This document shows positions 2,537 to 27,419 of a stretch of 29,282 nt of DNA, piece by piece. A program made the position numbers and the translations under genes. Position 1 is the stretch's first letter. Every line of letters begins with the position of its first letter. Source of the DNA: a virus; the IMG/VR virus record IMGVR_UViG_3300033148_003642, positions 1-29,282 of that record; one strand, written 5' to 3'. The notes under the pieces are model-generated. The model searched no databases. It had not been told where the DNA came from and saw only the letters and a list, made by a program, of their open reading frames with translations.

Positions 2537-3055
2537 TTACTCAATAATTCCTTCGAACGCACATTCAAACTCTTTTTGATTCAGAAAATCTGCTGGCATA
2601 ATATCACTTGGTTTTCGTCCTTCTAACGCTTTTGGGAATACTTTTTGAAGGCTTTGGCTAACCCCCTCAGAACAAAAGTAATATCTATTATTTTGTTTTA
2701 TCCACCTAACCAAAAATCTCAAGACCCCTAAAAAATCATAGCCTAGATTATTTAATGTCGCGCTAAAGTAAGCTACCTTGTATCTCTTACTTTTGTTATA
2801 GACAGAGTTTTTATAAACCATTATCTTAACATACCTGTCTTTATGAGTTTTTGTTATATCGATTAACCTAGCCCGGGGAGGGGCTATTTGGATGCTATGT
2901 TTTTCTCCCCCCGATATCTCTACGTGGGTGAAGTCAGCGTGTTCAGATAGAAAGCCAGCTTTTAACTGCATATCCCTTATTCTGTTTGCTACCCAGCTAC
3001 CGTCTGTTCTGTATGCTAGGATGTAACCCATTTTGCATATTTTAAGGTCTACCAT
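2537..3055 (-). CDS. Permuted papain-fold (NlpC/P60, YiiX/YebB-like) hydrolase, 172 aa
   Basis: The start at 3055 follows GGGAG at good spacing. The N-terminal part (GYILAYRTDGSWVANRIR, then THVEI with His44) and the later YYFCSEGVSQSL (Cys128) give a His-before-Cys order. That order, with 'FCSE' at the start of a helix, is typical of circularly permuted NlpC/P60-like papain folds such as YiiX and YebB, which act as amidases or peptidases. No signal peptide is seen. Position next to a lipoprotein at the end of the late operon suggests a role in cell-wall cleavage during lysis or entry, but related folds also act on other amide bonds. The catalytic assignment comes from pattern recognition. 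Confidence 0.6.
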   Translation of the reverse strand: MVDLKICKMGYILAYRTDGSWVANRIRDMQLKAGFLSEHADFTHVEISGGEKHSIQIAPPRARLIDITKTHKDRYVKIMVYKNSVYNKSKRYKVAYFSATLNNLGYDFLGVLRFLVRWIKQNNRYYFCSEGVSQSLQKVFPKALEGRKPSDIMPADFLNQKEFECAFEGIIE

Positions 3056-9526: not shown

Positions 9527-9701
9527 TCCCTAACTTAATAAATAATTCATTGTTGTAATACGCCATAGTATTAGCTTTCATCTCAGATGCACTTGTGGGT
9601 GTAGCCGTAAGCAAAATAATATTACCCATAGCATTTTGGGAAATATGGTCTAATGCTGAATTGAGGTCTTTATCTTGAATTTTCCTAGGGAATCTTTCCA
9701 T
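9489..9701 (-). CDS. Small tail-associated-type protein, 70 aa
   Basis: Start coupled to the upstream stop (TAATG at 9701). The C-terminal half has the form 'TPTSASEMKANTMAYYNNELFIKLGNGELKKFTVT'-like (positions about 34-67, abbreviated), a pattern I have seen in short proteins of environmental phages near tail-fibre genes. It predicts a small beta structure. No enzymatic motif. Function unknown; a tail accessory is likely from context. Confidence 0.55.
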   Translation of the reverse strand: MERFPRKIQDKDLNSALDHISQNAMGNIILLTATPTSASEMKANTMAYYNNELFIKLGNGELKKFTVTAV

Positions 9702-10108
9702 TATTCCGTATAGTTCCCGGGTAGCAACCCTTCGTCTATTAACTCCTTGATAGCGTCTTTACGCCCTTTGTCTTTTTTAATTTTAACAGCGCGCCCTATA
9801 ATCAACTTATCCTGTTGCCCCTTTAAGGCTTTAGTCTGGTTTACCCCAAGGCCGTTCCAGGGATCACCTTCCCAAGCATTTCGATCTGCCCTATCCGGTA
9901 ACATGGATGAGTCCATATCATCATAAGGTAACCCGATTAAGGTTGGGTCAGCACCTAGAGCTTCCTCTATACAGTAATCCCACGTCACGCTGGGGCTACA
10001 CGATCTTACCTTCACGGACTTATCTGGATAATACCAAACTCGGCGGGTATCAGCGTAAGCAACACCAACGGCTAAGATTAAAACAAAAGTTAAAATATAT
10101 TTTCTCAT
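9701..10108 (-). CDS. Exported tail-fibre-region protein with signal peptide, 135 aa
   Basis: The start at 10108 follows AAGGAGG. Residues 1-19 form a clear signal peptide (MRKYILTFVLILAVGVAYA) with a likely cut before DTRR. The mature part begins with VWYYPDKSVKV and later has SSMLPDRADRNAWEGD. Both elements recur in small cytoplasmic-looking phage proteins near tail fibres ('YYPDKSV', 'LPDxRxxRNAW'); here they are fused to an export signal. The C-terminus is charged and helical. The role may be tail-fibre assembly or attachment; the export signal is the odd part. Confidence 0.6.
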   Translation of the reverse strand: MRKYILTFVLILAVGVAYADTRRVWYYPDKSVKVRSCSPSVTWDYCIEEALGADPTLIGLPYDDMDSSMLPDRADRNAWEGDPWNGLGVNQTKALKGQQDKLIIGRAVKIKKDKGRKDAIKELIDEGLLPGNYTE

Positions 10109-10117
10109 AAAACCTCC

Positions 10118-11197
10118 TTATTGTGTTCCACAAGCTATGCAGCAAAGTGGGTCTGTATCTTCAGCAGCGGGAACGGCAGAAAAAGTATGTATTCTCGCAC
10201 TTCCAGTAGCTAATGCATTTATCCTAGTTGAATCGGATACTGACATACACGAGACAGCATAATCTGCATTAGTAAAATCAGTGTCCCAGGTGATAGTGTA
10301 CTCTCCTACACCCTCATCTGTTATCCCTGAGACATTAAAGGAATCGTCATCAGCTATTACCCCTGTACCGTCCAAATTTATCCACCCTTTTACTCTTGCA
10401 TCAAAATTTCCTCCTTCCGTCCAGGTCTTAATAGCCTTCTGTGTAGGTACTGCATCATCTGAATTGCCCGCTAATGTAGCGTCTGTTGAAAAATTAGTAA
10501 TATCTGCACCGGAAGAAAGTACCAATCCACTAGCATTTATCTGCGCTCTTTGTACATCAGCAGTTTTAAACCTGATTATATCCTCATCAGTATTTGCTTC
10601 CGTGTCTACAGAAGTATCGGAATCAGCGTCTTGTATCAAAGATGTATTAGATAGATTAATACCTGTAATCCTATCGTCTCTCACAGAAGAAACGGTGGTA
10701 GTATCAGACGATACCCTTGCTATTCTTATTGAGTTAGTTGCTACTACCGGTTCTGTTGCCTGTATTGCTACCTCTGAATAAGTATATGTACCATTGTTTG
10801 ATAAGTCTACAAAGGTATGCTTAGACGCTGTGTAAACCTTTGGTGTTGCGTCTTTAAGTACACGAGTGCCTAAGACATAGGCTGTACCTAACGTGGTAGT
10901 AGAGGTTAAGCTTGCACTTGTGGGAATGGTTAATCCGGTAAAAACAAAGTCATTAAACGCTTCATCCCAGCGATTTGTAGGATCTGCATTATCGTCAAGT
11001 GCTGTTGCCGGGATTGTACCAGCTTGTAGCAAAGCTCCATCTGCACTATTGATACCCGTCTCAGCGGTGGTAAAATTAGTTTGGAGATTATAAACGGTCA
11101 CGTCATCCGCAGTAAGTACATCGATCATTGTTACTTGTCCAAAGCAAACAGACGAATAAACAAAAGCCCCTATCAAAAATACAATAATTCTTTTCAT
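10118..11197 (-). CDS. Exported fibre-like protein with signal peptide, 359 aa
   Basis: The start chosen is ATG 11197, at good distance from AGGAGG; a GTG at 11203 overlapping the previous stop sits too close to that site. Residues 1-20 form a signal peptide (MKRIIVFLIGAFVYSSVCFG) with cleavage before QVTM. The mature protein is Thr/Ser/Asp/Ala-rich with beta-repeat character (TSASLTSTTTLGTAYVLGT) and the 'GTIPATALDDNADPTNRWDEAF' type segment seen in phage fibre shafts. The C-terminal 90 residues look like a beta domain, including a Cys-Cys near the end (DPLCCIACG). Likely a tail fibre or surface appendage. It follows the nozzle gene. Confidence 0.6.
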   Translation of the reverse strand: MKRIIVFLIGAFVYSSVCFGQVTMIDVLTADDVTVYNLQTNFTTAETGINSADGALLQAGTIPATALDDNADPTNRWDEAFNDFVFTGLTIPTSASLTSTTTLGTAYVLGTRVLKDATPKVYTASKHTFVDLSNNGTYTYSEVAIQATEPVVATNSIRIARVSSDTTTVSSVRDDRITGINLSNTSLIQDADSDTSVDTEANTDEDIIRFKTADVQRAQINASGLVLSSGADITNFSTDATLAGNSDDAVPTQKAIKTWTEGGNFDARVKGWINLDGTGVIADDDSFNVSGITDEGVGEYTITWDTDFTNADYAVSCMSVSDSTRINALATGSARIHTFSAVPAAEDTDPLCCIACGTQ

Positions 11198-11199
11198 CG

Positions 11200-12723
11200 T
11201 CACCCTCCTATTACTTTTATTTTCTTACGACTTTTAAGAACAAAATCTATCCCCATGCCCAACAACTCCGGCTGTAAATCATTTATATTTGCATCAATCT
11301 CAAACGCTATGCTTGAACCTCTAGCATAATCTATCTTAGGTCTCACCCTGCCTGTAAATTGGCTTTGGTTACCTATTTCTATATACCCTAGAGTCTTGGT
11401 TTCTCCTCTTAAATTCTGTATCCAAGATGTTTGTTCACCGCTTGGCTGCGAGATCCTTCCGTCTAAATGGTACATGATTATAAAGTTCATATCACCCGTA
11501 GGCACAAACTCAGGATAGAAAGCTAAAAATCTTACGTTTTGTCCCTTAGCTACGGTTAAATCCCTGGTGCGTAGTTTTGTATGTATTGCCACGCCGTCGA
11601 ACCTTCTGCCTCTATCACCATGCATTATAAAGTTTGAGTCAGAGCGGCAAAGTAATTGAAAATCGGTCTCCTTAGCCGAGTCACTTCGCATAAAAGCAGA
11701 GACATTACGGCCCTTTACAACATCAACATTGCCGGTTAAAGCATCATACCAGACCTCATAATTAGGTTCAGTACGTCCTTTCTCTACAAAACTGACTTGG
11801 TAATAATTGTTAAAAACTCCCGCAGAAGCCTTATCTAATTTATCCCTTACAGTTTCTACAAAATCCTTCATCTTCAATTCAAAGGTCAACATCTGTGCAG
11901 CGTTGCCATCCCATGACCATAGCTCATAATCATCTGCCATAAATATTATAGCCTTCTCTACCTTAGCAGCAGTACGCCCCGCAATGATGCTTCTTTCTTC
12001 AATAAGCCTAACCTCAAACGTAATCGCAAGCGCACTGATAACATCACCTATCACAACGAATATTCCTTCGGTATTGAATATGTAAAGTTTATCTTCAATT
12101 TTGCCTAAAGCAAGATTCTCCCCACGGCCCGAACCTACAATTATGTTAAGGCTGTCCGTTGCATCGTCAAATACGGTAGGTTCTAAATTCTTTGACACAT
12201 GGAGATCTGTCCTAGATATCATCCATAACCTATCTTTATGCTCTGCAACATCTATAGGCTTGAGTGAATTACCGTTTGCATCGGCCACCCCGGTTATATC
12301 AAACCTATTATCATTATTGCCGTCATATTCAACGAGGTTGACCCCGTCTACAAGATACATCTTAGTCTGGTTAGCCGTCTTAAAAAGCTGATGTTTAGGA
12401 TAAGCATTTAATGCCAGGTTCCCCCTTAGCTCTGTACGCGTGTTGAGAACATCATCTATAAGCCATATAAATCCATCCTCGGTATAAGCGAAAGTCTTAG
12501 GTGACACTATACTCGCCTCGTTGGTGTAATACCTTCCGGACCAACGTGGTATACCAGACATAGCCGATGTAAAAACTTTCTCTGTACCTAATGGGATTTT
12601 AAGCCTTCCATCGCGAGACAACCAATTTTCTCTTAATACCGGACTATCAGATTTCCCCTCATTTGATGGCGTGCGCCTGTCTATCTTACCGTTAAATTTA
12701 GTATAAAAATTTTTAGGTGGCAT
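11200..12723 (-). CDS. Tail nozzle/tube beta-propeller protein, 507 aa
   Basis: The start at 12723 follows GGGAG. The protein shows repeated blade-like segments (KMYLVDGVNLVEYDG; DRLWMISRTDLHVSK; KLYIFNTEGIFVVIGD; AIIFMADDYELWSWDG; NYEVWYDALTGNVDV), each a Tyr/Trp-rich beta strand ending in a turn. The 'DKLYIFNTEGIFVV' element is typical of podovirus tail-closure proteins of the P22 gp10 / T7 gp12 type, which close the tail after packaging. N-terminal RRTPSNEGKSDSPVLRENWL also fits phage proteins that begin with 'GLNTR...' anchors. No signal peptide. Assignment by pattern and synteny. Confidence 0.65.
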   Translation of the reverse strand: MPPKNFYTKFNGKIDRRTPSNEGKSDSPVLRENWLSRDGRLKIPLGTEKVFTSAMSGIPRWSGRYYTNEASIVSPKTFAYTEDGFIWLIDDVLNTRTELRGNLALNAYPKHQLFKTANQTKMYLVDGVNLVEYDGNNDNRFDITGVADANGNSLKPIDVAEHKDRLWMISRTDLHVSKNLEPTVFDDATDSLNIIVGSGRGENLALGKIEDKLYIFNTEGIFVVIGDVISALAITFEVRLIEERSIIAGRTAAKVEKAIIFMADDYELWSWDGNAAQMLTFELKMKDFVETVRDKLDKASAGVFNNYYQVSFVEKGRTEPNYEVWYDALTGNVDVVKGRNVSAFMRSDSAKETDFQLLCRSDSNFIMHGDRGRRFDGVAIHTKLRTRDLTVAKGQNVRFLAFYPEFVPTGDMNFIIMYHLDGRISQPSGEQTSWIQNLRGETKTLGYIEIGNQSQFTGRVRPKIDYARGSSIAFEIDANINDLQPELLGMGIDFVLKSRKKIKVIGG

Positions 12724-13266: not shown

Positions 13267-13857
13267 TTAATATATCATTATCATTTTCCCACGAGTAGTG
13301 GCAGTAGTATAAAATGCATATATCGCCAACAACCCAGTAAAACTGCCAGAACTAACCCCCCATGGACTAGGCAATGCTGTCTGTGATGTTTTGTAATCTC
13401 TCTTTGGAGTACCTGCTGAGTCTCTGTCTAATCTCGTTGCTCCACCAGCATCATTATCACACTGCATACACAACCAATATATTGTGTTCGGGGCTAGAGC
13501 TATGCTCAACCCCGCTTTCGTTTTCCAACCCACACCTGCTGATAACGCTCCTGCTGTAGACGATCCAACCAAAGCATCTGGTCTATCATTCCCGGCATCG
13601 TGAGTATATATACCTAACTCAAAATCCGGTGTATTCCCCGGGTTAGTGCTTATGTATGCACCCATTGCTGTTATTGTAGTCATGTCCGCGGGAGAGGTCA
13701 CTTTCATTGAAAAGGCTAAGGTATCTATTTGAGTATCGGCAGAACCGTCCGGATCAGCCACAGGGGCTGTTGTCACAAAACCAGAGTTGACACCATCTAC
13801 TAAAGCGCCGTAAGCTGGAAAAGACAATAATAAAAAAATTAATAATAGCTTAGTCAT
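13267..13857 (-). CDS. Exported beta-rich protein with signal peptide, 196 aa
   Basis: The start chosen is ATG 13857, overlapping the upstream stop by 8 nt (ATGACTAA); an upstream in-frame TTG at 13875 is less likely. Residues 1-17 form a signal peptide (MTKLLLIFLLLSFPAYG), cut before ALVDG. The rest resembles a carbohydrate-binding-like beta-sandwich: FSMKVTSPADMTTITAMGAYI, PDFELGIYTHD, APNTIYWLCMQCDN. Such domains occur in phage tail tips and host cell-surface proteins. It is co-translated with the 283-aa exported protein, suggesting a shared structure or place. Confidence 0.6.
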   Translation of the reverse strand: MTKLLLIFLLLSFPAYGALVDGVNSGFVTTAPVADPDGSADTQIDTLAFSMKVTSPADMTTITAMGAYISTNPGNTPDFELGIYTHDAGNDRPDALVGSSTAGALSAGVGWKTKAGLSIALAPNTIYWLCMQCDNDAGGATRLDRDSAGTPKRDYKTSQTALPSPWGVSSGSFTGLLAIYAFYTTATTRGKMIMIY

Positions 13858-14701
13858 AATCGTAACGAATCTCAAAGCACGCCTGTTTTATCGCCGTATT
13901 CGGAGCGCTGTCAAATGATATATATATAGTTTTCCCCGCGGCTACTCCCCCAGATGTAATACTATCATCGGCCAATACTCCGGCTGTAGTATCGAAAGTA
14001 TTTACTACCACCGGGTTAGCTAGTCCAATGAAAGTATCTGCGTATTTTAAATCACCGGCAATCTCATTCGCTGCTGAATCTAGCGTGACTGTTATTTTAG
14101 TTATGGTGATGTCCGCATCAGTTACCGGCCAAATACAGATCTCATTGTCCTCTGTTTGCGTAGCAAGAGGGTCTACAAGATTAAACCGTAAATACTTAGG
14201 TTCACTTGAAATGTTTCCTGTGATAACTGGTGTTGCTATAGTCGGAGTAGTGCCAAACACCCACGCGCCTGTCCCTGTCTCATCAGACACACGGCCGATC
14301 CAATTAGCTGATGTAGTCTGATCAATATTTGCGTAGGTATGATTATGGCTATCGTCTACCACATAAGCCTTAACATCATCCGGCCCACCTGCACCACCGT
14401 CAGTCCGTGTAAAGGTGACATCTGTATCGTCTTTAAAGTTAGCTACTGAGTCTACATTAACCCCATTGACTGTAACACTATCCCCACTCCCGCCAGTTAG
14501 TACAAGAGAAACCGTGCCATCGGAATTGTCAGTGAGCGTTCCATTGGTGACTTTGACTTTTGATATGTCCAGCACAGACGGCGCTCCATCCTCTTCTTCC
14601 ATAGATACAGCCCTATCAAGCCCTGTTATAGTAGGTTGCATCACTGCATAGCTATAGAATGTAAAAACACAAAGCAAAAGCAAAATGCATATTTTTTTCA
14701 T
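13850..14701 (-). CDS. Exported fibre-like protein with signal peptide, 283 aa
   Basis: The start at 14701 follows GAGGTAAGA. Residues 1-19 form a signal peptide (MKKICILLLLCVFTFYSYA). Next come VKVTNGTLTDNSDGTVSLVL, a short module also present as DNSDGTVTV near the N-terminus of the 958-aa fibre, and a Gly/Asp-rich beta region (GDSVTVNGVNVDSV). The C-terminal half (from about 180) is a compact beta domain with KYLRFNLVDP and DITITKITVTLDSA, similar in style to receptor-binding or collar-type domains. Likely a fibre or appendage. It is one of several exported proteins in a row. Confidence 0.6.
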   Translation of the reverse strand: MKKICILLLLCVFTFYSYAVMQPTITGLDRAVSMEEEDGAPSVLDISKVKVTNGTLTDNSDGTVSLVLTGGSGDSVTVNGVNVDSVANFKDDTDVTFTRTDGGAGGPDDVKAYVVDDSHNHTYANIDQTTSANWIGRVSDETGTGAWVFGTTPTIATPVITGNISSEPKYLRFNLVDPLATQTEDNEICIWPVTDADITITKITVTLDSAANEIAGDLKYADTFIGLANPVVVNTFDTTAGVLADDSITSGGVAAGKTIYISFDSAPNTAIKQACFEIRYDYD

Positions 14702-15556: not shown

Positions 15557-15916
15557 TTATTGCGACATATCCTTATTAATCAACTTCTGCGCTGTACTTT
15601 TCATCAACGTCTTTAGCCATACCGGGGATCTGCTATATACTTCCGTTGTCGTATACGTTGTGTTTGAAATATCTCCGAAAGGATATATATCTGATTCGGT
15701 GACTCTTACACCACCAGTATTAGCCCAGCCCTCTATCTGCACCGCATAAGGATAATATTCCTTCTCTCTTGATGTAAAATTATAGGTCGAATATGGCATA
15801 ATTATATTTGTCTTAAATTTTATATCGTCTACATTCTCAAATGTGATTACCCTTTGGGCCAATACTGTTACGGTGATAAGCAATGTTACTATTGATAAAC
15901 AAATAATTCTTTTCAT
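15557..15916 (-). CDS. Exported protein with signal peptide, 119 aa
   Basis: The start at 15916 follows AAGGAGGTGG. Residues 1-20 form a signal peptide (MKRIICLSIVTLLITVTVLA), cut before QRVITF. The mature 99 residues are beta-rich and Tyr/Thr-rich (YSTYNFTSREKEYYPYAVQI; SNTTYTTTEVYSR) and end in a helical basic tail. No known motif. It directly follows the 958-aa fibre in the operon (11-nt gap), so it may be a small partner, cap or chaperone of that fibre. Confidence 0.6.
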   Translation of the reverse strand: MKRIICLSIVTLLITVTVLAQRVITFENVDDIKFKTNIIMPYSTYNFTSREKEYYPYAVQIEGWANTGGVRVTESDIYPFGDISNTTYTTTEVYSRSPVWLKTLMKSTAQKLINKDMSQ

Positions 15917-15927
15917 AACCCACCTCC

Positions 15928-18804
15928 TTACGATACAACTCCACCTAGATTATCAGCAACGCCTCTTATAATCATCTTATGCAAGAACGCACTTGCACCT
16001 AGAGTGTCTGTTAATTCATCACCCAATCTATAAATTTTTAGTCCTAATACTTTATCTCCCGCATCAAAAGCTGCCGTAGGGATAACACAGGTAGAATGAA
16101 CCAAACCATTTGCATTTCCTGAGCTTTCATGCAAACAAGGAACATCGGTTACGGCGGTATCAGTCATATCTTCACCTGCCGCTTTGATTTGATAACCTAT
16201 TTGCCAGTAACAATCTTCTGACGTTGTCGGGCTATCCCATACTAAAATAACTTCCATATTTTCAGTATCATCCCATCTTCCAGTGATCCTCATGCTTGCG
16301 TGGATATGATCTTGGTTGCCATCTGTAAATTCATAAGCTGTGCTTACCCCTCTATTAACAAGAGTTGCTGAATTGGCTGGTGGTTCTTTAAACCCTGCGG
16401 AATCTATTTCAAAGCCTATCCAATATCTTCCATCACCTGTCATTGTCATTCTGCCAGCGTTACTAATGATTGTGGTATCCGTTCCGGCTCCAAAGGTAGA
16501 GCTTCCCGCTACATCTAAATCACCCAAAGCCCATACAGGAGCATTCATCTCTATGCCTATTGTGGCGCCTATATTAACCCAACCATCTAAGCCAGAGTCT
16601 ATGTATTCATTACCGTCTGTTTGAGTTAATACTATTTTTCCTTTGGTATTGATAGTCCCCGCGTTAATGGTTAGGAATTGGTTCTCAACTACTGCATCAA
16701 AAAAGCCATAGATAAGGGCTTCTGCTCTTGCCTCTGCTTCGGTACTTCTGTCAATACTATCAATGAATAATTTATAAGTAGCAGTTTCATATAGACCAGC
16801 ATTATTTCCGATAGATACACCATAGTCTGCTACCTTAGTGACATTACCAACTGCTACGGCATAATCTGTATCAACATCATAAGCACGAGAATAATATCCA
16901 AGCATTGTATTTCTCTCGCCTGTTGTAAGATTGCCACCAGTTGAATATCCAAACAAAGCGTTTTTGTTTCCATTGGTTCTCAAAGCTGTTCCTGAGTAAG
17001 TTCCGACACATGTGTTATAACCGATATTGCTTGCCCCATTTGCACCAGTGCCTGAATAACCACCTACAAATACATTATAGTTTCCGCCTGCGGTGTATCT
17101 TCCAGCATTGTGTCCTAATCCTGTGTTTACAGTGCCAGAGGTAAACTGTAAACTATTCTGTCCAATAGCAATAGTATTAAGTGCAGAAGTGCCACAATTT
17201 ACCATTGGGTCATATCCTATCGCCACATTTGATGTACCAGTTTCTAAGGCTCTTCCTGCGTGGAGTCCAATGAGAGTATTGCCTAAGCCTGATAACTCTA
17301 AATTAGCTCCTGCCTCTGAACCTATAACAACGCTATTCCCAGAAATCCCTGCACCTGCACCCATCATGGTTGATGTAGCACCGATGATTAAGGCAGGTAC
17401 TCCGTCTTGCAGAATCATCGAGTTAGTGGTATTGCTTTGTGCGTAGAGATAGACCCTACCACTGACTTCCATTGTTGCGTCAGATATGTTGTCTATATAT
17501 TCCGTTGTGGTGTTGTTTGATACTGTGGCTAGGTGATACTCTTTATAATTCGCTTCACCTGCTTTAGTTCTGTAAATCTTCCTAGAAGTAACACGATAAT
17601 CAGGGCTTACAGAGATAGTTACTGTGACCTGTTGTTTACCTGCAACTACAGTTATTGAGTCAGCTGTACTTCGTTCTGTTTCTCCAAAAGCAGTTTCATA
17701 GGTAACGTAGTAATAGTGAAGTCCAGCGTCAACGTTCCCTGCTGTGTCTATTTCTACTGCTACAGGGGCATTGGGTTTGGTTACATAGTTAAAGTCTATA
17801 CCTGTATCTACAATGCCATATTCTGTACTGGCTATACCGTAAATATGGAGTGCAGAACTTCCATCGTTCAAGGTTACACCATCAGTGACTGAACCAAATG
17901 TTCCTTGGCCTTCAGTTGTAAGATTCTCATTGCCAAAACTGATGCTACCGCTTGAGTCTATAATGGTTCCACCATAGATAGACATTGTTCCAATATAGGC
18001 ATTTAAAGAGGTAACTGAATTATCAAAATTACCCCCTCCAGCGTTGTCTATCCAAGACTGGCCTGATAAGTCTATGAAGGCATAGGTATCTCCACCAAGC
18101 AAAACTCCTTGGGTATCTCCGTTACTACGGAAGATTCCAGCGAAAGTATTGCCACCGAAAGTTGACCCTCCTAACTCTGCATAGTATGAATTGCCGAAAG
18201 ACCCAGTATTTGAAGTATAGACTGAGCTATCATTAAAATTGGCAGCCCCAGGATTTGACCAATTGAAGACGGCATCGGAACCATTGCTTGCGTAAAGTAT
18301 TCTGTTAGCTATATCTACTGACAGAAGAGGGCTGCTATCGGTTAATCCACTGTCAAAGCGCCCTGTGCCTGTGGTTGTAAAATCACCAGTCCCGGCAGAT
18401 ATATCAACATCCGCTCCTGATATATTGCCTACCCAGCCATAATTTCCAAACTGTATTACTGTTGTGCCGTCTGTAACCCCGGTATCGAATGCGCCTGAAC
18501 CAGTAGTATCAATATCAAATGATCCGTCCTTATCCCCTGTTAGCCCGGTATCATTCACATACTTGCGCCAGAATACATCTGATAAAGCCGTATCAAGATT
18601 GACCGTAACTGTACCGTCAGAGTTATCCTGAACGCCGCCGTCCGGGGAGAATCCAATGCTATACGGGTTGAAAACAGAGGTACTATCGTCTGATATTATC
18701 AAAACTCTAGTCTCAAAGATATTGTCTTGTGCTTGTACGTTTAACGCAAAAGCAAAAACTAAAAGTAACTTAAATATACTCAACAATCCTGATTTCACTA
18801 ACAT
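15928..18804 (-). CDS. Large exported tail fibre with trimeric-adhesin-like roll, 958 aa
   Basis: The start at 18804 lies inside the end of the previous gene. Residues 1-25 form a signal peptide (LLSIFKLLLVFAFALNVQA), cut before QDNIF. Parts in order: a DNSDGTVTV module near 60; repeated 'xFDxGVTD' shaft units to about 330; a fibronectin-like segment (YYVTYETAFGETERS, about 365-455); then about 480-690 a YadA-head-like left-handed roll with repeats such as GLGNTLIGLHAG, NVAIGYDPM, NTGLGHNAG and YNVFVGGYSG; and a C-terminal beta domain (from about 800; DCYWQIGYQIKAAGE). This is the architecture of a trimeric receptor-binding fibre. No S74 autochaperone or beta-barrel translocator was seen, so it is not itself an autotransporter. 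Export by Sec of a phage fibre is unusual. Confidence 0.75.
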   Translation of the reverse strand: MLVKSGLLSIFKLLLVFAFALNVQAQDNIFETRVLIISDDSTSVFNPYSIGFSPDGGVQDNSDGTVTVNLDTALSDVFWRKYVNDTGLTGDKDGSFDIDTTGSGAFDTGVTDGTTVIQFGNYGWVGNISGADVDISAGTGDFTTTGTGRFDSGLTDSSPLLSVDIANRILYASNGSDAVFNWSNPGAANFNDSSVYTSNTGSFGNSYYAELGGSTFGGNTFAGIFRSNGDTQGVLLGGDTYAFIDLSGQSWIDNAGGGNFDNSVTSLNAYIGTMSIYGGTIIDSSGSISFGNENLTTEGQGTFGSVTDGVTLNDGSSALHIYGIASTEYGIVDTGIDFNYVTKPNAPVAVEIDTAGNVDAGLHYYYVTYETAFGETERSTADSITVVAGKQQVTVTISVSPDYRVTSRKIYRTKAGEANYKEYHLATVSNNTTTEYIDNISDATMEVSGRVYLYAQSNTTNSMILQDGVPALIIGATSTMMGAGAGISGNSVVIGSEAGANLELSGLGNTLIGLHAGRALETGTSNVAIGYDPMVNCGTSALNTIAIGQNSLQFTSGTVNTGLGHNAGRYTAGGNYNVFVGGYSGTGANGASNIGYNTCVGTYSGTALRTNGNKNALFGYSTGGNLTTGERNTMLGYYSRAYDVDTDYAVAVGNVTKVADYGVSIGNNAGLYETATYKLFIDSIDRSTEAEARAEALIYGFFDAVVENQFLTINAGTINTKGKIVLTQTDGNEYIDSGLDGWVNIGATIGIEMNAPVWALGDLDVAGSSTFGAGTDTTIISNAGRMTMTGDGRYWIGFEIDSAGFKEPPANSATLVNRGVSTAYEFTDGNQDHIHASMRITGRWDDTENMEVILVWDSPTTSEDCYWQIGYQIKAAGEDMTDTAVTDVPCLHESSGNANGLVHSTCVIPTAAFDAGDKVLGLKIYRLGDELTDTLGASAFLHKMIIRGVADNLGGVVS

Positions 18805-19120: not shown

Positions 19121-19725
19121 TTTAGTTTTAATTTAGTAAGCTCAAGTTTGATACGCTTTTCTTGGGTTTGTATCCACAAATCCCTTGCACCTAATATATG
19201 CTCTTTGTTTATCCTCTCCCGCTCTTTCTTATCAAAAACCTTTTCTTTAAGCCTTAAAGCATCCTCTCTTTGATCGTGTTCAGTACGTTTCTTTTCAAGA
19301 CGCTTGGAGTCTGTGCCTAACAATGTAGTTTTAAGCTCATAATTTTTCGTAATGGCTTCCTGTTTTCTTCTTTCATCTATGGCCAGGTCTCTTTCACCCT
19401 CGACAGTGCTTAGGGCCAAGTCTGATTTAGACTTATTGAATGATAATGTATTATTCAATTTGTTATGTTTTGATATTTCCTTCCCTAACTGAGTTTTTAT
19501 ATTTATAACTTCAGTTTGTTCTTTTACTAATTTCTCTACCTCTATCTTTAATTTACGATTGTTGCTTTTCTCTTGATCTTTCAAAACACCGTTTTGACGG
19601 CGGACTTCGAGTATATGCTTCTCTAGCTCTTTCTGTTTAAGTGCCAGGGCATCGTGAAACTTCTTCAGCTCAACCGCATACTTGTCTGTAACGTGAGACA
19701 ACTCTTCTTTAATAAATTTAAGCAT
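19117..19725 (-). CDS. Long coiled-coil protein B, 202 aa
   Basis: The start at 19725 overlaps the end of the ligase-like gene by 8 nt. It is Lys/Glu/Leu-rich throughout (EELSHVTDKYAVELKKFHDAL; KEQTEVINIKTQLGKEISKH) and predicts one long coiled coil with no membrane segment. It shares length, composition and an IKT-L--E-S---KL---L segment with the 188-aa protein at 14969, so a duplication is plausible. Role unknown; fibre shaft or assembly factor are options. Confidence 0.55.
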   Translation of the reverse strand: MLKFIKEELSHVTDKYAVELKKFHDALALKQKELEKHILEVRRQNGVLKDQEKSNNRKLKIEVEKLVKEQTEVINIKTQLGKEISKHNKLNNTLSFNKSKSDLALSTVEGERDLAIDERRKQEAITKNYELKTTLLGTDSKRLEKKRTEHDQREDALRLKEKVFDKKERERINKEHILGARDLWIQTQEKRIKLELTKLKLK

Positions 19726-20887
19726 AGGTCTCCTTTTTCATTGATAGTTCGAACAAAGCAAAGCCCGGAATTATGAAACACGCTGTCCTGGCAAGAAACA
19801 TCGGGAAGTGTGCTAGACTGATCAATAAGACAATAGCACAAAATGCCCCAAGGGCTAGAGTCTGGTCACTCTTCATCGAGTACCTAAACATTCTAAAAAG
19901 ACTATACACATAACCGAATAAAAACACCAAACCGAATACCCCCCATTCAAAAAATAAAGATACATAAAGATTGTGAGGGTTATCCCATTTGTGTACGTTT
20001 TGATGCAATACATTCTTTGACCATGTTTTATTTACTTTCGTTGCGAAGTTAAACGTCTTGGTTTTAGTTATGTTTCTAAATGAATCCAATCCCCAACCGG
20101 TTATGGGCCTCACAGTTGCTTTCCTAAGCACTACCTGCCATTGGCTGAGTCTTGCTCTCTGCGGTCTGTCTACCCATTTTAAATACGAGCCTCCACCTAT
20201 TAATAAAACGATAACAATACCCCACCAGAGCTTACGCGGGACTCTGAAGAAAGAAACAAAAATAAGCCCTATTATTGCGATTAAAAGGCAACTTGATGCT
20301 TTGGATAGGTAAAGACCGGCAAAGGCCAGGACAAGGGTCATTTTGCCCCATTTTGACCGCCTCATAGCGCATATCGGGACAGCTAACGCGCATAAATACC
20401 CTAGAATAGACGCATGCCCCATAAACCCGGTAGGCTTTAAATTAATAGCATGATTTTTCCATGCCGTAGCAGTGAGAAAGTTTTCCCCATAGATAAAATC
20501 ATACCCCGCTAGTTGGATAAAAGCGTATAGTACATTTATCGACATTAGGACAACAATCGCATTGAAGAAATATTTTATATGTTTTTTCTTAAAATATGTT
20601 TTTGTCAGGTAGTAAAGAATTGAACAGTAAAATATGTTAGACAAATAGGTATGGCCTGTCTCAAACTTGAAAAAGCAAAATAGGAATAATGTCCACCAAA
20701 GAAAACCTGTCAGCCAGATGTTTCTCAGCAATAGGCCGAATATAACAGAGATAGCTATAGTCATCACGAATTGCTGTGCTTCTCTTTCGTGCATGCCCTG
20801 GACTGTCACAATACAGAGAAAGCATAAGGCTATAATAAAAGCTCTGATTACTTTAGGAGAGTATGTCTCTAGTATTTGTTTTATCAT
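19718..20887 (-). CDS. O-antigen polymerase/ligase-family (Wzy_C) membrane enzyme, 389 aa
   Basis: A polytopic membrane protein with about ten to twelve hydrophobic segments. Near residue 305 it has NPHNLYVSLFFEWGVFGLVFLFG, the 'HN..y......E.G..G' signature of the Wzy_C/O-antigen ligase superfamily, and before it a periplasmic-loop segment ITGWGLDSFRN, also typical. The superfamily contains Wzy polymerases, WaaL ligases and PglL/PilO protein O-glycosyltransferases, which all use undecaprenyl-linked glycans in the periplasm; the sequence alone does not say which. The start at 20887 overlaps the adaptor stop by ATGA and the stop overlaps the next gene by 8 nt, so it is a built-in part of the late operon. 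Phage D3 uses a Wzy of this type for seroconversion. Its position among exported proteins is notable. Confidence 0.8.
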   Translation of the reverse strand: MIKQILETYSPKVIRAFIIALCFLCIVTVQGMHEREAQQFVMTIAISVIFGLLLRNIWLTGFLWWTLFLFCFFKFETGHTYLSNIFYCSILYYLTKTYFKKKHIKYFFNAIVVLMSINVLYAFIQLAGYDFIYGENFLTATAWKNHAINLKPTGFMGHASILGYLCALAVPICAMRRSKWGKMTLVLAFAGLYLSKASSCLLIAIIGLIFVSFFRVPRKLWWGIVIVLLIGGGSYLKWVDRPQRARLSQWQVVLRKATVRPITGWGLDSFRNITKTKTFNFATKVNKTWSKNVLHQNVHKWDNPHNLYVSLFFEWGVFGLVFLFGYVYSLFRMFRYSMKSDQTLALGAFCAIVLLISLAHFPMFLARTACFIIPGFALFELSMKKETYA

Positions 20888-21585
20888 GCTATTGGGATTT
20901 TCGGGCTAAAGTATGATATATCCGGTGAACGTGATTGACATTGCTGGTTCATCCCTATATTCTTAGCCGCCCCGATTATCAATTCATCTTTTAACTCTTT
21001 AACTTTGACCTTAGCAGCAGAGATACCAGTTGTATTACTATCATCTAAAAACTCTTTTAGCTCAGCTACGCCCATAGCTATTACTAATGGATCGTATTTA
21101 TTTTCAAAAGGTGAACTGCCGCCTGATATCACATCTGTTAATAATTTAATATAATCTAAAACTATCAGATCAGCAGTAGCAACGCTAGGCGTAGGGCCGA
21201 GATATAATTTATTATCCCATAAAGCGCATACGTCAGGGGTTGCAGCTGAGTCGGCAGAAGGATCGGGGAATAAATCTCTGTATCTGCTAAACGGTATTAG
21301 TTCTATAACACTATCATTAGTACGCTCTGTAAATTTGAATGGTTGGCTGAAATCTACCGGTAAAGCAGATATATCTATATATTCTTGATCTGCTACTGGC
21401 GTTAGGGTGGTTGATTCCGATATGTCATCTAAAAGGCTATGGTCTAAAAATAGCTGCTTAATGACTTTCAGCGCATCGTTGATTATGTCTATGGCTAAGG
21501 TGTCCAAGGGTGTGTCGTTAGACACATTATAATCAGCTCTGCGTTTTATCTTCGCGACTAGATTGTCTATTGTTGATTTTGCCAT
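20884..21585 (-). CDS. Head-tail adaptor (connector) protein, 233 aa
   Basis: The start chosen is ATG 21585 with GGGAGGAC just upstream; an in-frame TTG at 21597 is less likely. The helical N-terminus (DNLVAKIKRRADYNVSNDTPLDTLAIDIINDALKVI, abbreviated) is followed by a beta part (YIDISALPVDFSQPFKF) and LWDNKLYLGPTPSVATADLIVLDYIK, then a helical C-terminus. This is the organisation of P22 gp4 / T7 gp11-type adaptors, which bind under the portal and start the tail. It lies after capsid genes, as expected. Assigned by architecture and synteny. Confidence 0.6.
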   Translation of the reverse strand: MAKSTIDNLVAKIKRRADYNVSNDTPLDTLAIDIINDALKVIKQLFLDHSLLDDISESTTLTPVADQEYIDISALPVDFSQPFKFTERTNDSVIELIPFSRYRDLFPDPSADSAATPDVCALWDNKLYLGPTPSVATADLIVLDYIKLLTDVISGGSSPFENKYDPLVIAMGVAELKEFLDDSNTTGISAAKVKVKELKDELIIGAAKNIGMNQQCQSRSPDISYFSPKIPIA

Positions 21586-21872
21586 TTGTCCTCCCAATAT
21601 TTATTAGGTTTGTTAATAACGGTCATTATTATACTAAGTTCAACATCACTAACTGGATTATACGTATAGATAACGTATTCCGCCCCTTTGTTGATAATAA
21701 ATCCCCATGAGCCAACTGTCCTTTCGTTTGGGTCTAAGTCAACCTTAAACCCATTTTTTGCAAACTCTTGCTGTATTGCTTTGGGGTAACAAGAGAAAGG
21801 AATAGCCAACTCATCAGGATGAGCGGTAAAGGTAATCAATGTGAAAAGAATTAATATAAATATATTTTTCAT
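21567..21872 (-). CDS. Small exported protein with signal peptide, 101 aa
   Basis: Residues 1-17 are strongly hydrophobic after MKN (IFILILFTLITFTA), a likely signal peptide, though the cut site is unclear. The mature part (FSCYPKAIQQEFAKNGFKVDLD, WGFIINKGAEYVIYTYNP) is a small alpha/beta protein with one Cys. Its 3' end overlaps the adaptor gene by 19 nt. A strong GC hairpin lies just upstream, and only a weak site (GGTG) precedes the ATG. Function unknown. Confidence 0.6.
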   Translation of the reverse strand: MKNIFILILFTLITFTAHPDELAIPFSCYPKAIQQEFAKNGFKVDLDPNERTVGSWGFIINKGAEYVIYTYNPVSDVELSIIMTVINKPNKYWEDKWQNQQ

Positions 21873-21878
21873 AAATAC

Positions 21879-21906
21879 ACCGGGAGGCGGGAAGCCACCC
21901 CCCGGT
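21879..21906 (-). terminator. GC-rich hairpin after the capsid gene pair
   Basis: ACCGGG (21879-21884) pairs with CCCGGT (21901-21906), with further pairing inside (GGC with GCC). On the minus strand it is followed by GTATTT and then the next start codon, so the T-tract is weak. It may be a partial terminator or an mRNA 3'-stabilising hairpin that keeps capsid and decoration mRNA in excess. Confidence 0.5.
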
Positions 21907-21942
21907 AAATTTTCCTAATTGTCAAAAGTCTTTGGAATGCAA

Positions 21943-22539
21943 TTACTCACATTTCAAAAACACTTCTACGTCATCATCCCCAGCTGTACCATTGTCCATG
22001 AAAAATCCAGCGTTGCCTTGTCTGTGTGATTCACCAATACCAGCAGCATTAGTTGAAGTCCAGCCACTAGCTTCACCCAGCGTAGTACCTGTACCCATTG
22101 CTCCACCTGCAAAACCGCCAAGAGAAGCATCAACTCTGACTTCCGCCATACCATAGGTCTGCAAGAAAGTCCAGTTGTCTTTGCCTCTGTCCTGTGCGGC
22201 GGTATTACCTGAAGTGTCTTGAGTAAGACAGTTATTCACGATAATACCTGCAACAGTGGTATCCCCGGAAATCGTAGTCAGTTTGATTGTAACACCGTCA
22301 TCAACAACGGTATCCCAAACGACTATTGACTCCGCGGCAATAGTAGCCGATGTAGCCTCAGCCTCAACCCCTGTACCAAGATACCTAACAACCCTAAACC
22401 TTTTAGGTGCGGTATTCTGGTAAGACATGCTGATAAGTTGGCCATCACCCGGCCCGGTGCGATTACCTGGTGTCTGTGCAAAAACGTATCCCCCAAAAAG
22501 AAGGGACACGATAGCTAAAGAAAGTATAATCTTTCTCAT
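21943..22539 (-). CDS. Capsid decoration-like protein with signal peptide, 198 aa
   Basis: The start at 22539 follows AGGAGGG. Residues 1-21 form a signal peptide (MRKIILSLAIVSLLFGGYVFA), cut before QTPGN. The mature part is beta-rich: KRFRVVRYLGTG, TIKLTTISGDTTVAGIIVNN, then FLQTYGMAEVRVDASLGG. The 'v.GI....v.tyG.a.V.vd' flow resembles DUF2190-type capsid-decoration proteins, and position directly after the capsid gene fits. Two Cys are present (one near the C-terminus). A signal peptide on a capsid protein is hard to explain, because decoration normally happens in the cytoplasm. Alternatively it is an abundant exported protein unrelated to the capsid. Confidence 0.6.
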   Translation of the reverse strand: MRKIILSLAIVSLLFGGYVFAQTPGNRTGPGDGQLISMSYQNTAPKRFRVVRYLGTGVEAEATSATIAAESIVVWDTVVDDGVTIKLTTISGDTTVAGIIVNNCLTQDTSGNTAAQDRGKDNWTFLQTYGMAEVRVDASLGGFAGGAMGTGTTLGEASGWTSTNAAGIGESHRQGNAGFFMDNGTAGDDDVEVFLKCE

Positions 22540-22549
22540 TTTATCCCTC

Positions 22550-23638
22550 CTATGTGGTTGCTACGCCAGTTGCTACAAAGTGAGCAGCTGGTAAATCAGT
22601 GTCTAAATTACCAAAGAACCAGAAGAATAAGCCTCTGTTCAGGCCGTTTCCAATGGGTCTAAAACCTTTGGGATCCCAAATAAAGTTTCCATCTCTTAGA
22701 GCTTTCAACTTCATGTGGTTAGAGTTAACACCGTACATATACCCTGCGGTAATGGTATTAGCTCCACCCTTAGTCACTAGATTCTCAAAACCAATAGTCG
22801 TATTGCCTAGCTGAATGGTCTGAATCTTTAACTGGGCCATTTTGTCATCCGGGCGTAATCTCTGCAATGTAGCTAAGTATCCTGACAAACCCGAGAAGGT
22901 GTTCGAGTCCAGGATAACAAGATCGACTGCATCATTAGCGCCTATAGTCTGCTCGATGATTAACTTAGTCATAGCTTGGATACCTGCTTCAGAACCTATG
23001 TCGGTAATACCTGCGGTACTAGCGCCGTTCTGCAAAGCTGCATTGGTGGCTCTTGTCTGACCGCCAACGGTTCCAACAAGAGGGGTAGCTGAAATCAAAT
23101 TAGGTACACTTTCCGGCTCTAATGCACCCGGAGCAGTGTTCCAGAAAGCTGAGTTAAATTGGTTAGGGATAGTAGATTTAGCTTGTTCTCGTTGATCCAT
23201 AACCCAATCTCTCATCATAGCGCGACCTTTAACCATAGCTTTATGTTTTTCATTAATAACCATAGCGCCTGTAAAGGTCTGAATCGGGAAACGTAAGCGA
23301 AGATTAGGGTCTTGAAGATTAGCTGGTATTTCTGTTGTGTGAGATCTCCAACCAAAGTTAGTATTCTCAGTACCTCGTAGTGAGTTCCAAAATTCCAGGC
23401 CACCGCTAAGCAATTTATACCTTTTCTTTTCCTTTAACGCAGCAAAAAGAAAGTTAGTATTTATAATGCCATCGCCCTGTGTCCCGAAATCCGGTACAGC
23501 AGATACCAGTAATGATTCAAGAGCATCTTCATTAGTTGTTGCATATTCAACATTAGTAACAAACATAGCGTTACCCCATACGCAGTAATGCATAAATTTT
23601 GTTACTAGGCCAAATATACCAATGCTAAAGATATTCAT
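22550..23638 (-). CDS. Major capsid protein, 362 aa
   Basis: The start at 23638 follows AGGAGTG. Near the N-terminus are NTNFLFAALKEKKRYKLLSGG and EFWNSL; near the C-terminus YMYGVNSNHMKLKALRDGNF, KGFRPIGNGLNRGLFFWFFGNLDTDLP. This C-terminal run ('MYfvNt..lkL......F......P.nqda......GNL') is shared by a widespread set of environmental phage coat proteins with the HK97-type fold. It lies between a scaffold and a decoration-like gene. The first 25 residues are unusually hydrophobic (IFSIGIFGLVTKFM); a second Met at 25 could be an alternative start but has no good site. Confidence 0.75.
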   Translation of the reverse strand: MNIFSIGIFGLVTKFMHYCVWGNAMFVTNVEYATTNEDALESLLVSAVPDFGTQGDGIINTNFLFAALKEKKRYKLLSGGLEFWNSLRGTENTNFGWRSHTTEIPANLQDPNLRLRFPIQTFTGAMVINEKHKAMVKGRAMMRDWVMDQREQAKSTIPNQFNSAFWNTAPGALEPESVPNLISATPLVGTVGGQTRATNAALQNGASTAGITDIGSEAGIQAMTKLIIEQTIGANDAVDLVILDSNTFSGLSGYLATLQRLRPDDKMAQLKIQTIQLGNTTIGFENLVTKGGANTITAGYMYGVNSNHMKLKALRDGNFIWDPKGFRPIGNGLNRGLFFWFFGNLDTDLPAAHFVATGVATT

Positions 23639-23647
23639 TGTTCACTC

Positions 23648-24646
23648 CTAGTAAATACCCATGCGGTCAAATTCTGATTCAAGGATGCTCTCAGCGTCCT
23701 CATCGGTAACAGCAATTTTCTTTTGCCCTTTGCCTTCTGAGCCTGCGCCTTTAACATTTTGCCTTAGATCAGTCTTTTTTTCGTCACGAGTGATTTGCTC
23801 TTTCCCCGCTCGTAAGCGTTCAATGTTCAACTTATTAATCTGGATAGTGACAGCCTTTTCTAAGTCTGGTTGTAAACCTTCGGGGTTCTTATCTAGCCAT
23901 TCCTTTACCATGGGTTCAACGTCTTTAGTATAGTCTAAGATTTTCTCCTCTGCGACTTTAGCTTGTAGGTCTTTAACCAACGTGCGCCCTGCCTCAACCT
24001 GCTGTTTCTGTTGATCGGCTTGCCCTAGTCTGCTTTCAATAGGTTTAAGCCTGGCATCAACAATAGCACTTGAAGCCTTGATAATCTCTTCTAGGTAAGT
24101 TCTTTCCTCGGGTTTTAAATCATTAGCACTTTTAAACCCAAACTCTTTAGCAACAGCATCTAAATCGCTTGTCGCTGGCTTGGGTGCTTCAAAACCTTTC
24201 TCAATAAGTTTCGCATCAATTGCTTCCTGAGTATATCCTTGCTCCTTCATGGAAGTCTTGATATACGCCGGGGACTCTATAATAGTTTTAACATCCTCAA
24301 GAGATTGTGTCTGTTCTTCAGACAATCCACCCTTGGCCTTAAACTCATCACGCTCAGCTCTAGCTGTATTACGTTCATCCATAATACGCTTCCAAGCTGG
24401 ATCATCGTGATAGCCTTTCGGGGCTTCGGTAGTTTCTTCCTTGGCTTCTTCACTTTTTTTCGAGGTCGTGTCCTCGGAAGCCTTGGCTGTTTCTGCCTTA
24501 TCCTCGGTAGTTTGCTTTTCCGGTGACGAATCGGATGGCGTTCCTTGCTCAATCTTATCGAGTTGAGAGTCTAACAAGGCTTCAACCTTGTCATTAGAAT
24601 CCTCTACAATAACATCTGTTTTAGCGTCAAATTCTTGTCCTTCCAT
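23648..24646 (-). CDS. Scaffolding protein, 332 aa
   Basis: The start at 24646 follows AAGGAG at good spacing. The N-terminal 90 residues are highly acidic and Ser/Thr/Lys/Glu-rich (PSDSSPEKQTTEDKAETAK), the middle (about 95-240) is mostly helical and coiled-coil, and the C-terminus is mixed charge (KKTDLRQNVKGAGSEGKGQK, then an acidic end). This profile, plus its place between portal and capsid genes, is typical of phage scaffolds that assemble the procapsid and leave it. No protease motif was recognised. Confidence 0.75.
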   Translation of the reverse strand: MEGQEFDAKTDVIVEDSNDKVEALLDSQLDKIEQGTPSDSSPEKQTTEDKAETAKASEDTTSKKSEEAKEETTEAPKGYHDDPAWKRIMDERNTARAERDEFKAKGGLSEEQTQSLEDVKTIIESPAYIKTSMKEQGYTQEAIDAKLIEKGFEAPKPATSDLDAVAKEFGFKSANDLKPEERTYLEEIIKASSAIVDARLKPIESRLGQADQQKQQVEAGRTLVKDLQAKVAEEKILDYTKDVEPMVKEWLDKNPEGLQPDLEKAVTIQINKLNIERLRAGKEQITRDEKKTDLRQNVKGAGSEGKGQKKIAVTDEDAESILESEFDRMGIY

Positions 24647-25374: not shown

Positions 25375-25591
25375 TAACCCTCCAATTAGACAAGACCTCT
25401 CTTCTAACAACTTTTAAAACGGCCCGAACAGTTTGCCTATCTATTTCTTTAGTTTCGTCATTTAACAAGGTATAGTCACCTTTAGTCCAATATTCTTTGC
25501 CTTTGCGTTTCTTATAAAACTCACAATAAGCTTTATGCACGGCCTCGCTACACTCTTCAACCAATTCAGAAATTATATCAAACTCCAGCAT
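25364..25591 (-). CDS. Hypothetical protein, 75 aa
   Basis: The start at 25591 lies 14 nt inside the portal gene and follows AAAGGAG. The product is a charged helical protein (ISELVEECSEAVHKAYCEFYKKRKG) with a basic C-terminus (KVVRREVLSNWRV). The 3' end overlaps the zinc-ribbon gene by 11 nt. No motif recognised. A portal-linked morphogenesis accessory is possible by position. Confidence 0.6.
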   Translation of the reverse strand: MLEFDIISELVEECSEAVHKAYCEFYKKRKGKEYWTKGDYTLLNDETKEIDRQTVRAVLKVVRREVLSNWRVNGI

Positions 25592-27419
25592 TCGCTCTCC
25601 TTTCAGCCTCAGCCTGTCTTTCTGCGTCCTCTTCCGGGCTTATCTGCTCCTCTCCGGCCTGTACAGCATTGGGGTCTGGTGGTGGTGGTGCGTCTACGAA
25701 TAGCACTTCCGGAGTAAAGCCAAACTGTTTACTGATCTTAGCTATCTCATCTGTGTTAATTGTCTTACCTTGGGCCTGGAATAAGGGTAATAGACCAGCT
25801 AGCTCTTTAATAAATAATATGGCCTCATTTCGCTTTCTCTCCTTGTTTGGGCGTAGAGCCGAAGATATATCGACTTTGACCCAATAATCGCCTGTAAGCA
25901 AGTCTGAGAGCGGATTAAGCACCATTTCCTGACCTGTCATAGGATTCACCGCTGTCTGTGGCTCATACCATGACATCTTTTCTTTACCAGTTATTTTAAA
26001 GAATATAGGTTTATCCCAAAATGTAGCTATCAAATCTTTGCCGGAGTCTAGTTGTTCTTGGATGAAGAATCTTAAACCTTCTTGGATGTCAGCAGTCTTT
26101 TCCTGGAAGCCCGCTTCTTGTATTTTAAGCCCTGTGGCGAACTTTTCATTAGCTTTACCTTGTAGCCTTGAGGTGGAAACACCCCATCCTTTCTCTGACC
26201 TGGTTTGGAATAGGGCGAATTGCTCTTTGTTTTCGTTGGATACTGGAGTAGGTACTAAGGGGATAATCGTGCCGGTAGGTGGCCCATCTGCCTCTACAAT
26301 ATCATTGACCTTAGTGCTTTTTAGAGATTCCTTAGCCGCATGTTTGATTTTCTTACCGTCTACAAGGTATTTGGGGATATTCCTCTTAGCCACCTCTGCT
26401 TGGAATCTGATATATTCATTCATCTCATCGCTCATCTTCTTGTTTATCTGAGCCATGGAAGTCGGATAAAGTCTACCGTATTTGTGTAATGTGCCTATCT
26501 TCATGTCAAAACCATTGGTGACATACGGTCTTTTGAACATATCAAGCTCTTCTTCTAAGATGCTAGGAGCTATAACAAGGTTCCAATAACTGCCGTCCTT
26601 CTTCTTGATTTGGAACTCATAGACGAACATCTTACCAGAACGGCTCTCTTTCTCATGCATGGAGTATCTAAATCGTCCATTGGAGTCTGTGACACGGCCA
26701 GCAAACTTAGGATAGGTGATGTTAAACTCTTCCGGGGACATCCAGACTTTCTTGAGATTGTATCTACGGTCTATGATTCGCTCAGCGCGCCAGTCCAAAG
26801 GTACATTGACAGGATCCCAACGTCTGATATATGTGCCTGTGTTGGTAGCAGTAGACGATTCCTTGGGAGGTTGTGCCTTCTCAAGAGCTTCTTCCGCGGC
26901 TTTCTCGTCCTTTCTCTTGAATATGCCTGTAGCACGTTCCATTAATGTTTTACGTTTGGCTAAATCCTGTTCTGACGGTAATAAATCCTTTTTACTGCCT
27001 GTGCCGGGGTTATATTGTCCTACTTCTATACACCCTATACCGGAATACAACATATCAAACAAAGCTACACGATTTTCTACGATAGCATGGCTTTTATCAA
27101 ACCAATAGCTCAATGCTGCTTTCATCAAATCCTCACCCTCTTCGGCTTCCGGTTTAGCGGCATCTACTACAATATCCGGGTTCTGATACATTATTTCAGA
27201 TATTAGTGCGTTGGTATTGGGGAAATGCTCGTTTATAATAGCTAGTCTTTGGTGAGTGTTTAGATGAGGGTGGGGGGCTTCTGCCCGGTCGAAGCCTTCG
27301 TAGTAGTTTATAAGGAAGGGGTAATTGTTGCGATGTAATAGCTCTTGCTGTTGTCTTTGTTCACATGAGCGGGCTTCACTCAACCAGAAATTTATCTCCG
27401 AAGCGTTTAGTTTCCCCAT
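25578..27419 (-). CDS. Portal protein, 613 aa
   Basis: The start at 27419 overlaps the previous stop (TAATG). Length and layout fit a podovirus portal, the dodecameric ring through which DNA is packaged. Supporting features: an N-terminal helical part with NALISEIMYQNPDIVV, a region with DMLYSGIGCIEVG, the domain around RRWDPVNVPLDWRAER and YRYSMHE-like segments, and helical EMNEYIRFQAEVAKRNIPKY near 350. The C-terminal part has DYWVKVDISSALRPNKERKRNEA, which is typical of portal crowns, and an acidic/Ala-rich end. It follows the terminase and precedes the scaffold, as expected. Confidence 0.8.
   Translation of the reverse strand: MGKLNASEINFWLSEARSCEQRQQQELLHRNNYPFLINYYEGFDRAEAPHPHLNTHQRLAIINEHFPNTNALISEIMYQNPDIVVDAAKPEAEEGEDLMKAALSYWFDKSHAIVENRVALFDMLYSGIGCIEVGQYNPGTGSKKDLLPSEQDLAKRKTLMERATGIFKRKDEKAAEEALEKAQPPKESSTATNTGTYIRRWDPVNVPLDWRAERIIDRRYNLKKVWMSPEEFNITYPKFAGRVTDSNGRFRYSMHEKESRSGKMFVYEFQIKKKDGSYWNLVIAPSILEEELDMFKRPYVTNGFDMKIGTLHKYGRLYPTSMAQINKKMSDEMNEYIRFQAEVAKRNIPKYLVDGKKIKHAAKESLKSTKVNDIVEADGPPTGTIIPLVPTPVSNENKEQFALFQTRSEKGWGVSTSRLQGKANEKFATGLKIQEAGFQEKTADIQEGLRFFIQEQLDSGKDLIATFWDKPIFFKITGKEKMSWYEPQTAVNPMTGQEMVLNPLSDLLTGDYWVKVDISSALRPNKERKRNEAILFIKELAGLLPLFQAQGKTINTDEIAKISKQFGFTPEVLFVDAPPPPDPNAVQAGEEQISPEEDAERQAEAERRANAGV

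Follow-up and report, generated by a model that had tools for sequence, protein, structure and literature searches.

Tailed-phage assembly is taught as a cytoplasmic process that is completed before lysis, and it is well established that decoration proteins such as T4 Soc and Hoc and lambda gpD can be added in vitro to finished capsids. We know of no tailed phage shown to export virion proteins, known members of the Phage_cement_2 family are, to our knowledge, not described as exported, and none of the open-access papers that we consulted gave a precedent for such signals on a tailed-phage decoration or structural protein. Exported virion proteins are documented in the filamentous phages M13/f1, in which SecYEG exports pVIII and pIII, both made with type I signal sequences, ahead of their incorporation into the virion (PMC4823517).

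The DNA analyzed here is a 29,282-nt stretch ("the window"; record G000 in our set, IMG/VR record IMGVR_UViG_3300033148_003642) containing the late region, on the minus strand, of an uncultivated tailed phage. Immediately after the gene for the major capsid protein (MCP) lies a gene, hereafter the post-capsid gene, whose product begins with a predicted signal peptide. Queries with the MCP, the portal, and the post-capsid protein (alone and as an alignment) identified seven further contigs from four metagenomes in IMG/VR. The resulting clade of eight contigs (G000, L002, L005, L006, L008, L009, L011, and L027) is entirely metagenomic, and several of its contigs are incomplete.

Late region of the phage and the gene after the capsid gene

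Assignment to the tailed phages is based on five products: a portal of the P22 type, a scaffold-like protein of acidic character, an MCP, an adaptor of the SU10 type, and a protein that resembles tail spikes. The portal, scaffold, MCP, and adaptor genes follow one another in the order of a P22-like podovirus block, with profile matches to PF16510, PF24175, and phrog_9953, and these families are common to those clade contigs that cover them. The P22-like portal (25578..27419, minus strand; PF16510, E 1.3e-11), the scaffold-like protein (23648..24646, minus; assigned by position and its acidic, low-complexity N-terminus), and the SU10-like head-tail adaptor (20884..21597, minus; PF24175, E 1e-9) have no signal peptide. 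The MCP (22550..23638, minus; phrog_9953, E 8.6e-19) is homologous to the capsid proteins of Mx8 and BUCT555. Three of the eight MCPs have a hydrophobic or amphipathic N-terminal extension of ∼20–25 residues with its own Shine-Dalgarno sequence (window 23564-23638, minus; L002:8674-8740; L006:8892-8955), and the other five begin right at the conserved NVxYA segment.

Other parts of the window encode a 1478-aa protein (3211-7647, minus) that matches the uncharacterized family phrog_9880 (E 1.7e-114) and is probably an internal or ejection protein, and a 67-aa lipoprotein-like ORF (2321-2524, minus; LSFIS|C) that may be the outer-membrane spanin and, if so, would point to a diderm host. Between these lies a gene (2537-3055, minus) for a protein of 172 aa that carries the motifs H..FTHVE and YFCSE. 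This protein had no Pfam match at E values up to 0.1; we take it to resemble permuted NlpC/P60 (YiiX-like) peptidases.

With a gap of 10 bp to the MCP gene and a Shine-Dalgarno AGGAGG (22546..22551, minus) before its ATG, the post-capsid gene (21943..22539, minus) specifies a product of 198 aa. Its upstream neighbor being a match to the major head protein family phrog_9953, the placement directly after the capsid gene given in the initial annotation is upheld, as is the signal peptide ending in VFA before QTPGN. The first 21 residues, MRKIILSLAIVSLLFGGYVFA (22477..22539, minus), form a textbook n/h/c signal peptide with predicted cleavage after VFA. The predicted mature domain of 177 aa (21946..22476, minus) is rich in Ser, Thr, and Gly, and family alignment shows the conserved motif series NWTxLQTYG...AGxAM...NAGFF. 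The beta pattern also described in the initial annotation is plausible; AlphaFold2 gave pLDDT values of 39 and 36 for the full-length and mature protein (nine and ten sequences, respectively), too low to yield a usable fold.

Including that of the window, the clade contains ten homologs of the post-capsid protein in the same slot, the others being 37–50% identical to the window protein and the L027/G007 member the most distant. On all eight contigs a homolog lies directly downstream of the MCP gene or of the first tandem copy; two contigs carry a tandem duplication that includes the signal (L005:9356-10585 and L009:6127-7359). Starts of phage genes are often mis-called, and this general caution is the one point in favor of a true protein that lacks the first 21 residues. 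When the N-termini of the ten proteins were compared, as had been proposed, none started downstream of the signal and no downstream start codon was conserved; every member encodes the signal stretch, and a Shine-Dalgarno sequence is recognizable before the start of about eight (absent before the second copy in L005 and weak before the L008 copy). We consequently reject a mis-called start, which we consider very improbable.

Conservation of the signal peptide and the shared capsid unit

To all ORFs of the eight contigs, grouped into families, we applied one rule for signal peptides, namely a positive n-region, a hydrophobic core, and small residues at −3/−1. The rule is simple and crude: it recognized three of four known signal peptides (PhoA was missed), and some clade members pass only by eye. 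All ten post-capsid homologs passed, with n-region charges of +2 to +3 and core mean hydropathies of 2.8–3.6. Pairwise identity within the family averages ∼40% in the signal stretch, compared with 51% in the mature part. Because all ten pass at such low identity, whereas only 1.4% of ORFs do so in control phages, the signal is more than a chance resemblance, and the retention of a basic n-region and hydrophobic core at 40% vs. 51% identity is what would be expected if export were under selection. Since all homologs keep the signal, Sec-dependent export of the post-capsid protein is well supported by sequence.

A hydrophobic N-terminus might instead remain uncleaved, serving as a membrane anchor or assembly tether that, for example, holds proheads at the inner membrane. 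The N-terminal extensions on three of the eight MCPs, hydrophobic or amphipathic and preceded by a Shine-Dalgarno sequence, suggest some membrane contact and so lend this idea a degree of support. In the post-capsid family, however, the hydrophobic core is short and is followed by small residues, ending in A-x-A and then ATPG in most members with an ATPGxR-like mature start, features that are typical of cleaved signals, and we regard an anchor as unlikely.

Genome contigs scanned with the protein and MCP alignments yielded no relative, and a captured host gene was rejected as the origin on this basis. NCBIfam returned only weak matches, for the post-capsid protein and for a homolog of the next gene, at the N-termini of families such as HdeA, YgiW/YdeI, and AimP, which we take to be exported proteins. 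No relatives outside the clade that would link the family to a proven decoration protein were found, and there were none in the isolate-phage collection.

Downstream of the post-capsid gene lies a terminator-like stem-loop with a 13-bp stem (21878..21907, minus), and relatives have a stem-loop of unrelated sequence in the same place. We folded this region in seven contigs (the window, L002, L005, L008, L009, L011, and L027); six of them have a stem-loop here, which in L005 and L009 follows both copies, and none was seen in L008. Relative to shuffled sequences the folds gave z values from −7.0 to −0.1; because individual folds are not all significant, we rely on the recurrence of a stem-loop at this site. 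The placement of the stem-loop after the post-capsid gene, rather than before it, indicates that the gene is probably co-expressed with the MCP gene in one expression unit, as judged from layout. Adjacency to the MCP gene on 8/8 contigs, together with this layout-based co-expression, agrees with what defines the decoration class. In the P22 record a stem-loop is annotated just after the coat gene; that its counterpart here follows the exported gene suggests, by analogy, that the post-capsid protein is made at capsid-like levels.

The initial annotation took position and beta pattern to suggest capsid decoration by a protein with a signal peptide. Export is well supported, given the signals kept in all ten homologs, and decoration is suggested by the slot, the shared MCP unit, a parallel with Mx8 p49 (discussed below), and a sub-threshold match to Phage_cement_2 (PF09956, formerly DUF2190). 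The comparison with DUF2190 profiles that it had proposed gave, across 13 phage records, a single match at E values up to 10, inside the G007 member (model positions 43–95 of 103). At 14.8 bits this match is below the curated cut-off of 24 bits, and no other clade record produced one. The post-capsid protein had no convincing match in Pfam, PHROG, NCBIfam, or PDB; weak matches to a trypsin inhibitor (at the signal region), a YDG domain, and Fab chains were dismissed as chance.

The next gene (21567..21872, minus) encodes a conserved small protein of 101 aa with a signal-peptide-like or membrane N-terminus; four of eight homologs passed the rule, and a hydrophobic n/h/c stretch is visible by eye in all eight. 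Its mature part reads DELxIPFSCYPK...ESWG, and in three relatives a basic N-terminal extension of about 30–45 residues precedes the hydrophobic stretch. Because holin and endolysin genes occupy the slot between capsid and adaptor in BUCT555, a link of this small gene to lysis is possible by analogy.

Distribution of predicted signals among the protein families of the clade

Applied across the clade, the rule separated the families by predicted role. Decoration-like proteins passed in 10/10 cases and tail-fiber proteins in five of six, the sixth being clear by eye (SSA|G), whereas none of 45 core assembly proteins did so (terminase 0/9, portal 0/8, scaffold 0/8, MCP 0/8, adaptor 0/6, and gp10-like 0/6). 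Apart from the small gene that follows the post-capsid gene (4/8, as above), other shared families also scored zero, except for the multi-membrane protein Wzy_C, whose first transmembrane segment passed in 3/6. As predicted from sequence, then, fiber and decoration families carry signals and core assembly families do not. For the clade as a whole 47 of 305 ORFs passed, vs. four of 294 in five isolate phages of other hosts that served as controls (Mx8, BUCT555, P22, HMO-2011, and DB virus 2; Fisher p 6e-11, although kinship among the clade ORFs makes them non-independent). When only ORFs of at least 150 aa were counted, the figures were 25/150 and 1/162.

The tail-fiber family protein of the window (10118..11203, minus; phrog_11355 tail fiber, E 1.5e-8) has the signal MTMKRIIVFLIGAFVYSSVCFG followed by QVT, and it matches annotated tail fibers of the marine phages Octadecabacter DB virus 2 and HMO-2011. 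Within the family the N-terminal part is conserved and the C-terminal part variable, as in fibers, which supports its fiber-like character; the family was not found outside the clade in IMG/VR. A tail-spike-like protein of 958 aa (15928..18804, minus; phrog_4636 tail spike, E 9.1e-10) also has a signal, ...LNVQA before QDN, as do the products of window genes at 13267-13875, 13850-14701, 15557-15916, and 9701-10108. The tail-spike-like protein contains YadA-like NxAIGxxA repeats.

Since the assembly of tailed phages is generally placed in the cytoplasm, signals on an MCP-coupled protein and on fibers are unexpected. The initial annotation had offered two branches, one in which the exported protein meets capsids outside the cytoplasm and one in which the slot next to the capsid gene serves to express an abundant exported protein. 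In the second branch, our main rival reading, the product would be a non-virion protein with a periplasmic or outer-membrane role such as superinfection exclusion, receptor masking, or preparation of the envelope for lysis, and exported fiber-like proteins could likewise act as, e.g., receptor blockers. A clear export signal without proven decoration homology agrees with such a function, as do neighbors that may act on the envelope, namely the small gene with an exported or membrane N-terminus and the Wzy_C gene three genes on. Virion parts are a better fit to the tight coupling with the MCP gene ahead of the stem-loop and to the Mx8 parallel; the same holds for signals on a recognizable tail-fiber family whose members agree in the N-part and vary in the C-part. 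The single weak profile match, moreover, points to a family of capsid cement proteins. We therefore hold a non-virion function to be a genuine but somewhat improbable possibility, and the fiber signals favor, without proving, the first branch, in which virion parts meet capsids outside the cytoplasm.

The Wzy_C gene (19718..20887, minus), which encodes a membrane protein of the O-antigen ligase/polymerase superfamily, adjoins the adaptor gene. It is present in the late operon of all clade contigs that cover the site (6/6), where the motifs GWGLDSF and WDNxHN are invariant; a search of four control phages found no counterpart. Family comparison led to no assignment among ligase, polymerase, and protein-glycosylating subtypes. 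The protein could function in surface conversion or, more speculatively, in glycosylation of exported Ser/Thr-rich virion proteins; Ser and Thr make up 20–24% of the mature decoration and fiber proteins.

Proposed virion finishing outside the cytoplasm and comparison with known systems

What can be read from the DNA itself is the open reading frame with its start, the signal kept by every family member, the location after the MCP gene, the stem-loop that follows, and the presence of signals in fiber and decoration families but not in core assembly families. With signals on the capsid-coupled protein and the fibers and on no core part, passage of outer virion proteins through the periplasm is the simplest account. 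In the model that we propose, the post-capsid gene would produce a small head-surface protein in large amounts from a stem-loop-ended capsid/decoration gene pair, and the host Sec system would export this protein with removal of the 21-residue signal. The mature protein (∼177 aa) would wait in the periplasm together with the tail fibers, which also carry signals, while the capsid, portal, adaptor, and tail-closure proteins would assemble in the cytoplasm. Once the inner membrane breaks at lysis, the exported decoration and fiber proteins would bind the particle. Actual export, cleavage, capsid binding, and their timing are steps that we infer, and late attachment is physically reasonable because in vitro decoration of finished capsids is established in other phages. 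An abundant, Sec-exported head-surface protein that is held in the periplasm with the fibers and joins the particle at lysis is, in our judgment, an evenly balanced proposition. A fuller scheme of extracytoplasmic finishing, in which exported decoration proteins and fibers would undergo periplasmic modification, perhaps including glycosylation by Wzy_C, before being added to DNA-filled capsids at lysis, is a good deal more conjectural and on present evidence improbable.

If the model is right, virion parts of tailed phages can pass through the periplasm and join the particle at a later stage, so that the finishing of a tailed virion outside the cytoplasm, and periplasmic chemistry such as disulfides and glycans on phage particles, become testable. 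If the protein is not part of the virion, the slot beside the capsid gene serves to make an exported phage protein in amounts like those of the capsid, and this too would be unusual.

Among described slot proteins the nearest counterpart is Mx8 p49 (phrog_29386), whose annotation is "major virion structural protein". It shares the slot directly after a homologous MCP and is similar in size (162 aa) and Gly/Ala/Thr-rich. Neither p49 nor the BUCT555 slot proteins had BLAST similarity to the post-capsid protein. Membership of the p49 family was likewise not supported by BLASTP or by hhalign against Mx8/Mx9 p49 (E 0.07), the best local profile alignment of which pairs NWTWLQTYG of the clade with QYGWYLITG of p49, colinear and not significant. 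Unlike the clade protein, p49 has no signal peptide. The HMO-2011 slot protein likewise lacks a signal peptide; its sequence looks unrelated, and it was rejected as a relative. Phage_cement_2 is represented by the sub-threshold match of the single G007 member.

The P22 head block has the same portal/scaffold/coat order as the clade and an annotated stem-loop after the coat gene. P22 has no exported head protein, whereas in the clade the stem-loop lies after the exported gene, which thus shares the coat unit. With respect to export, the closest systems are M13 and f1, whose pVIII and pIII resemble the clade protein as virion proteins with type I signals, the virion role of the latter being the one proposed here. 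The M13/f1 coat proteins are inserted in the membrane and assemble during extrusion of the filament, whereas the clade consists of tailed dsDNA phages whose portal is P22-like, and their exported protein, unlike the filamentous coat proteins, has no membrane anchor beyond its predicted signal.
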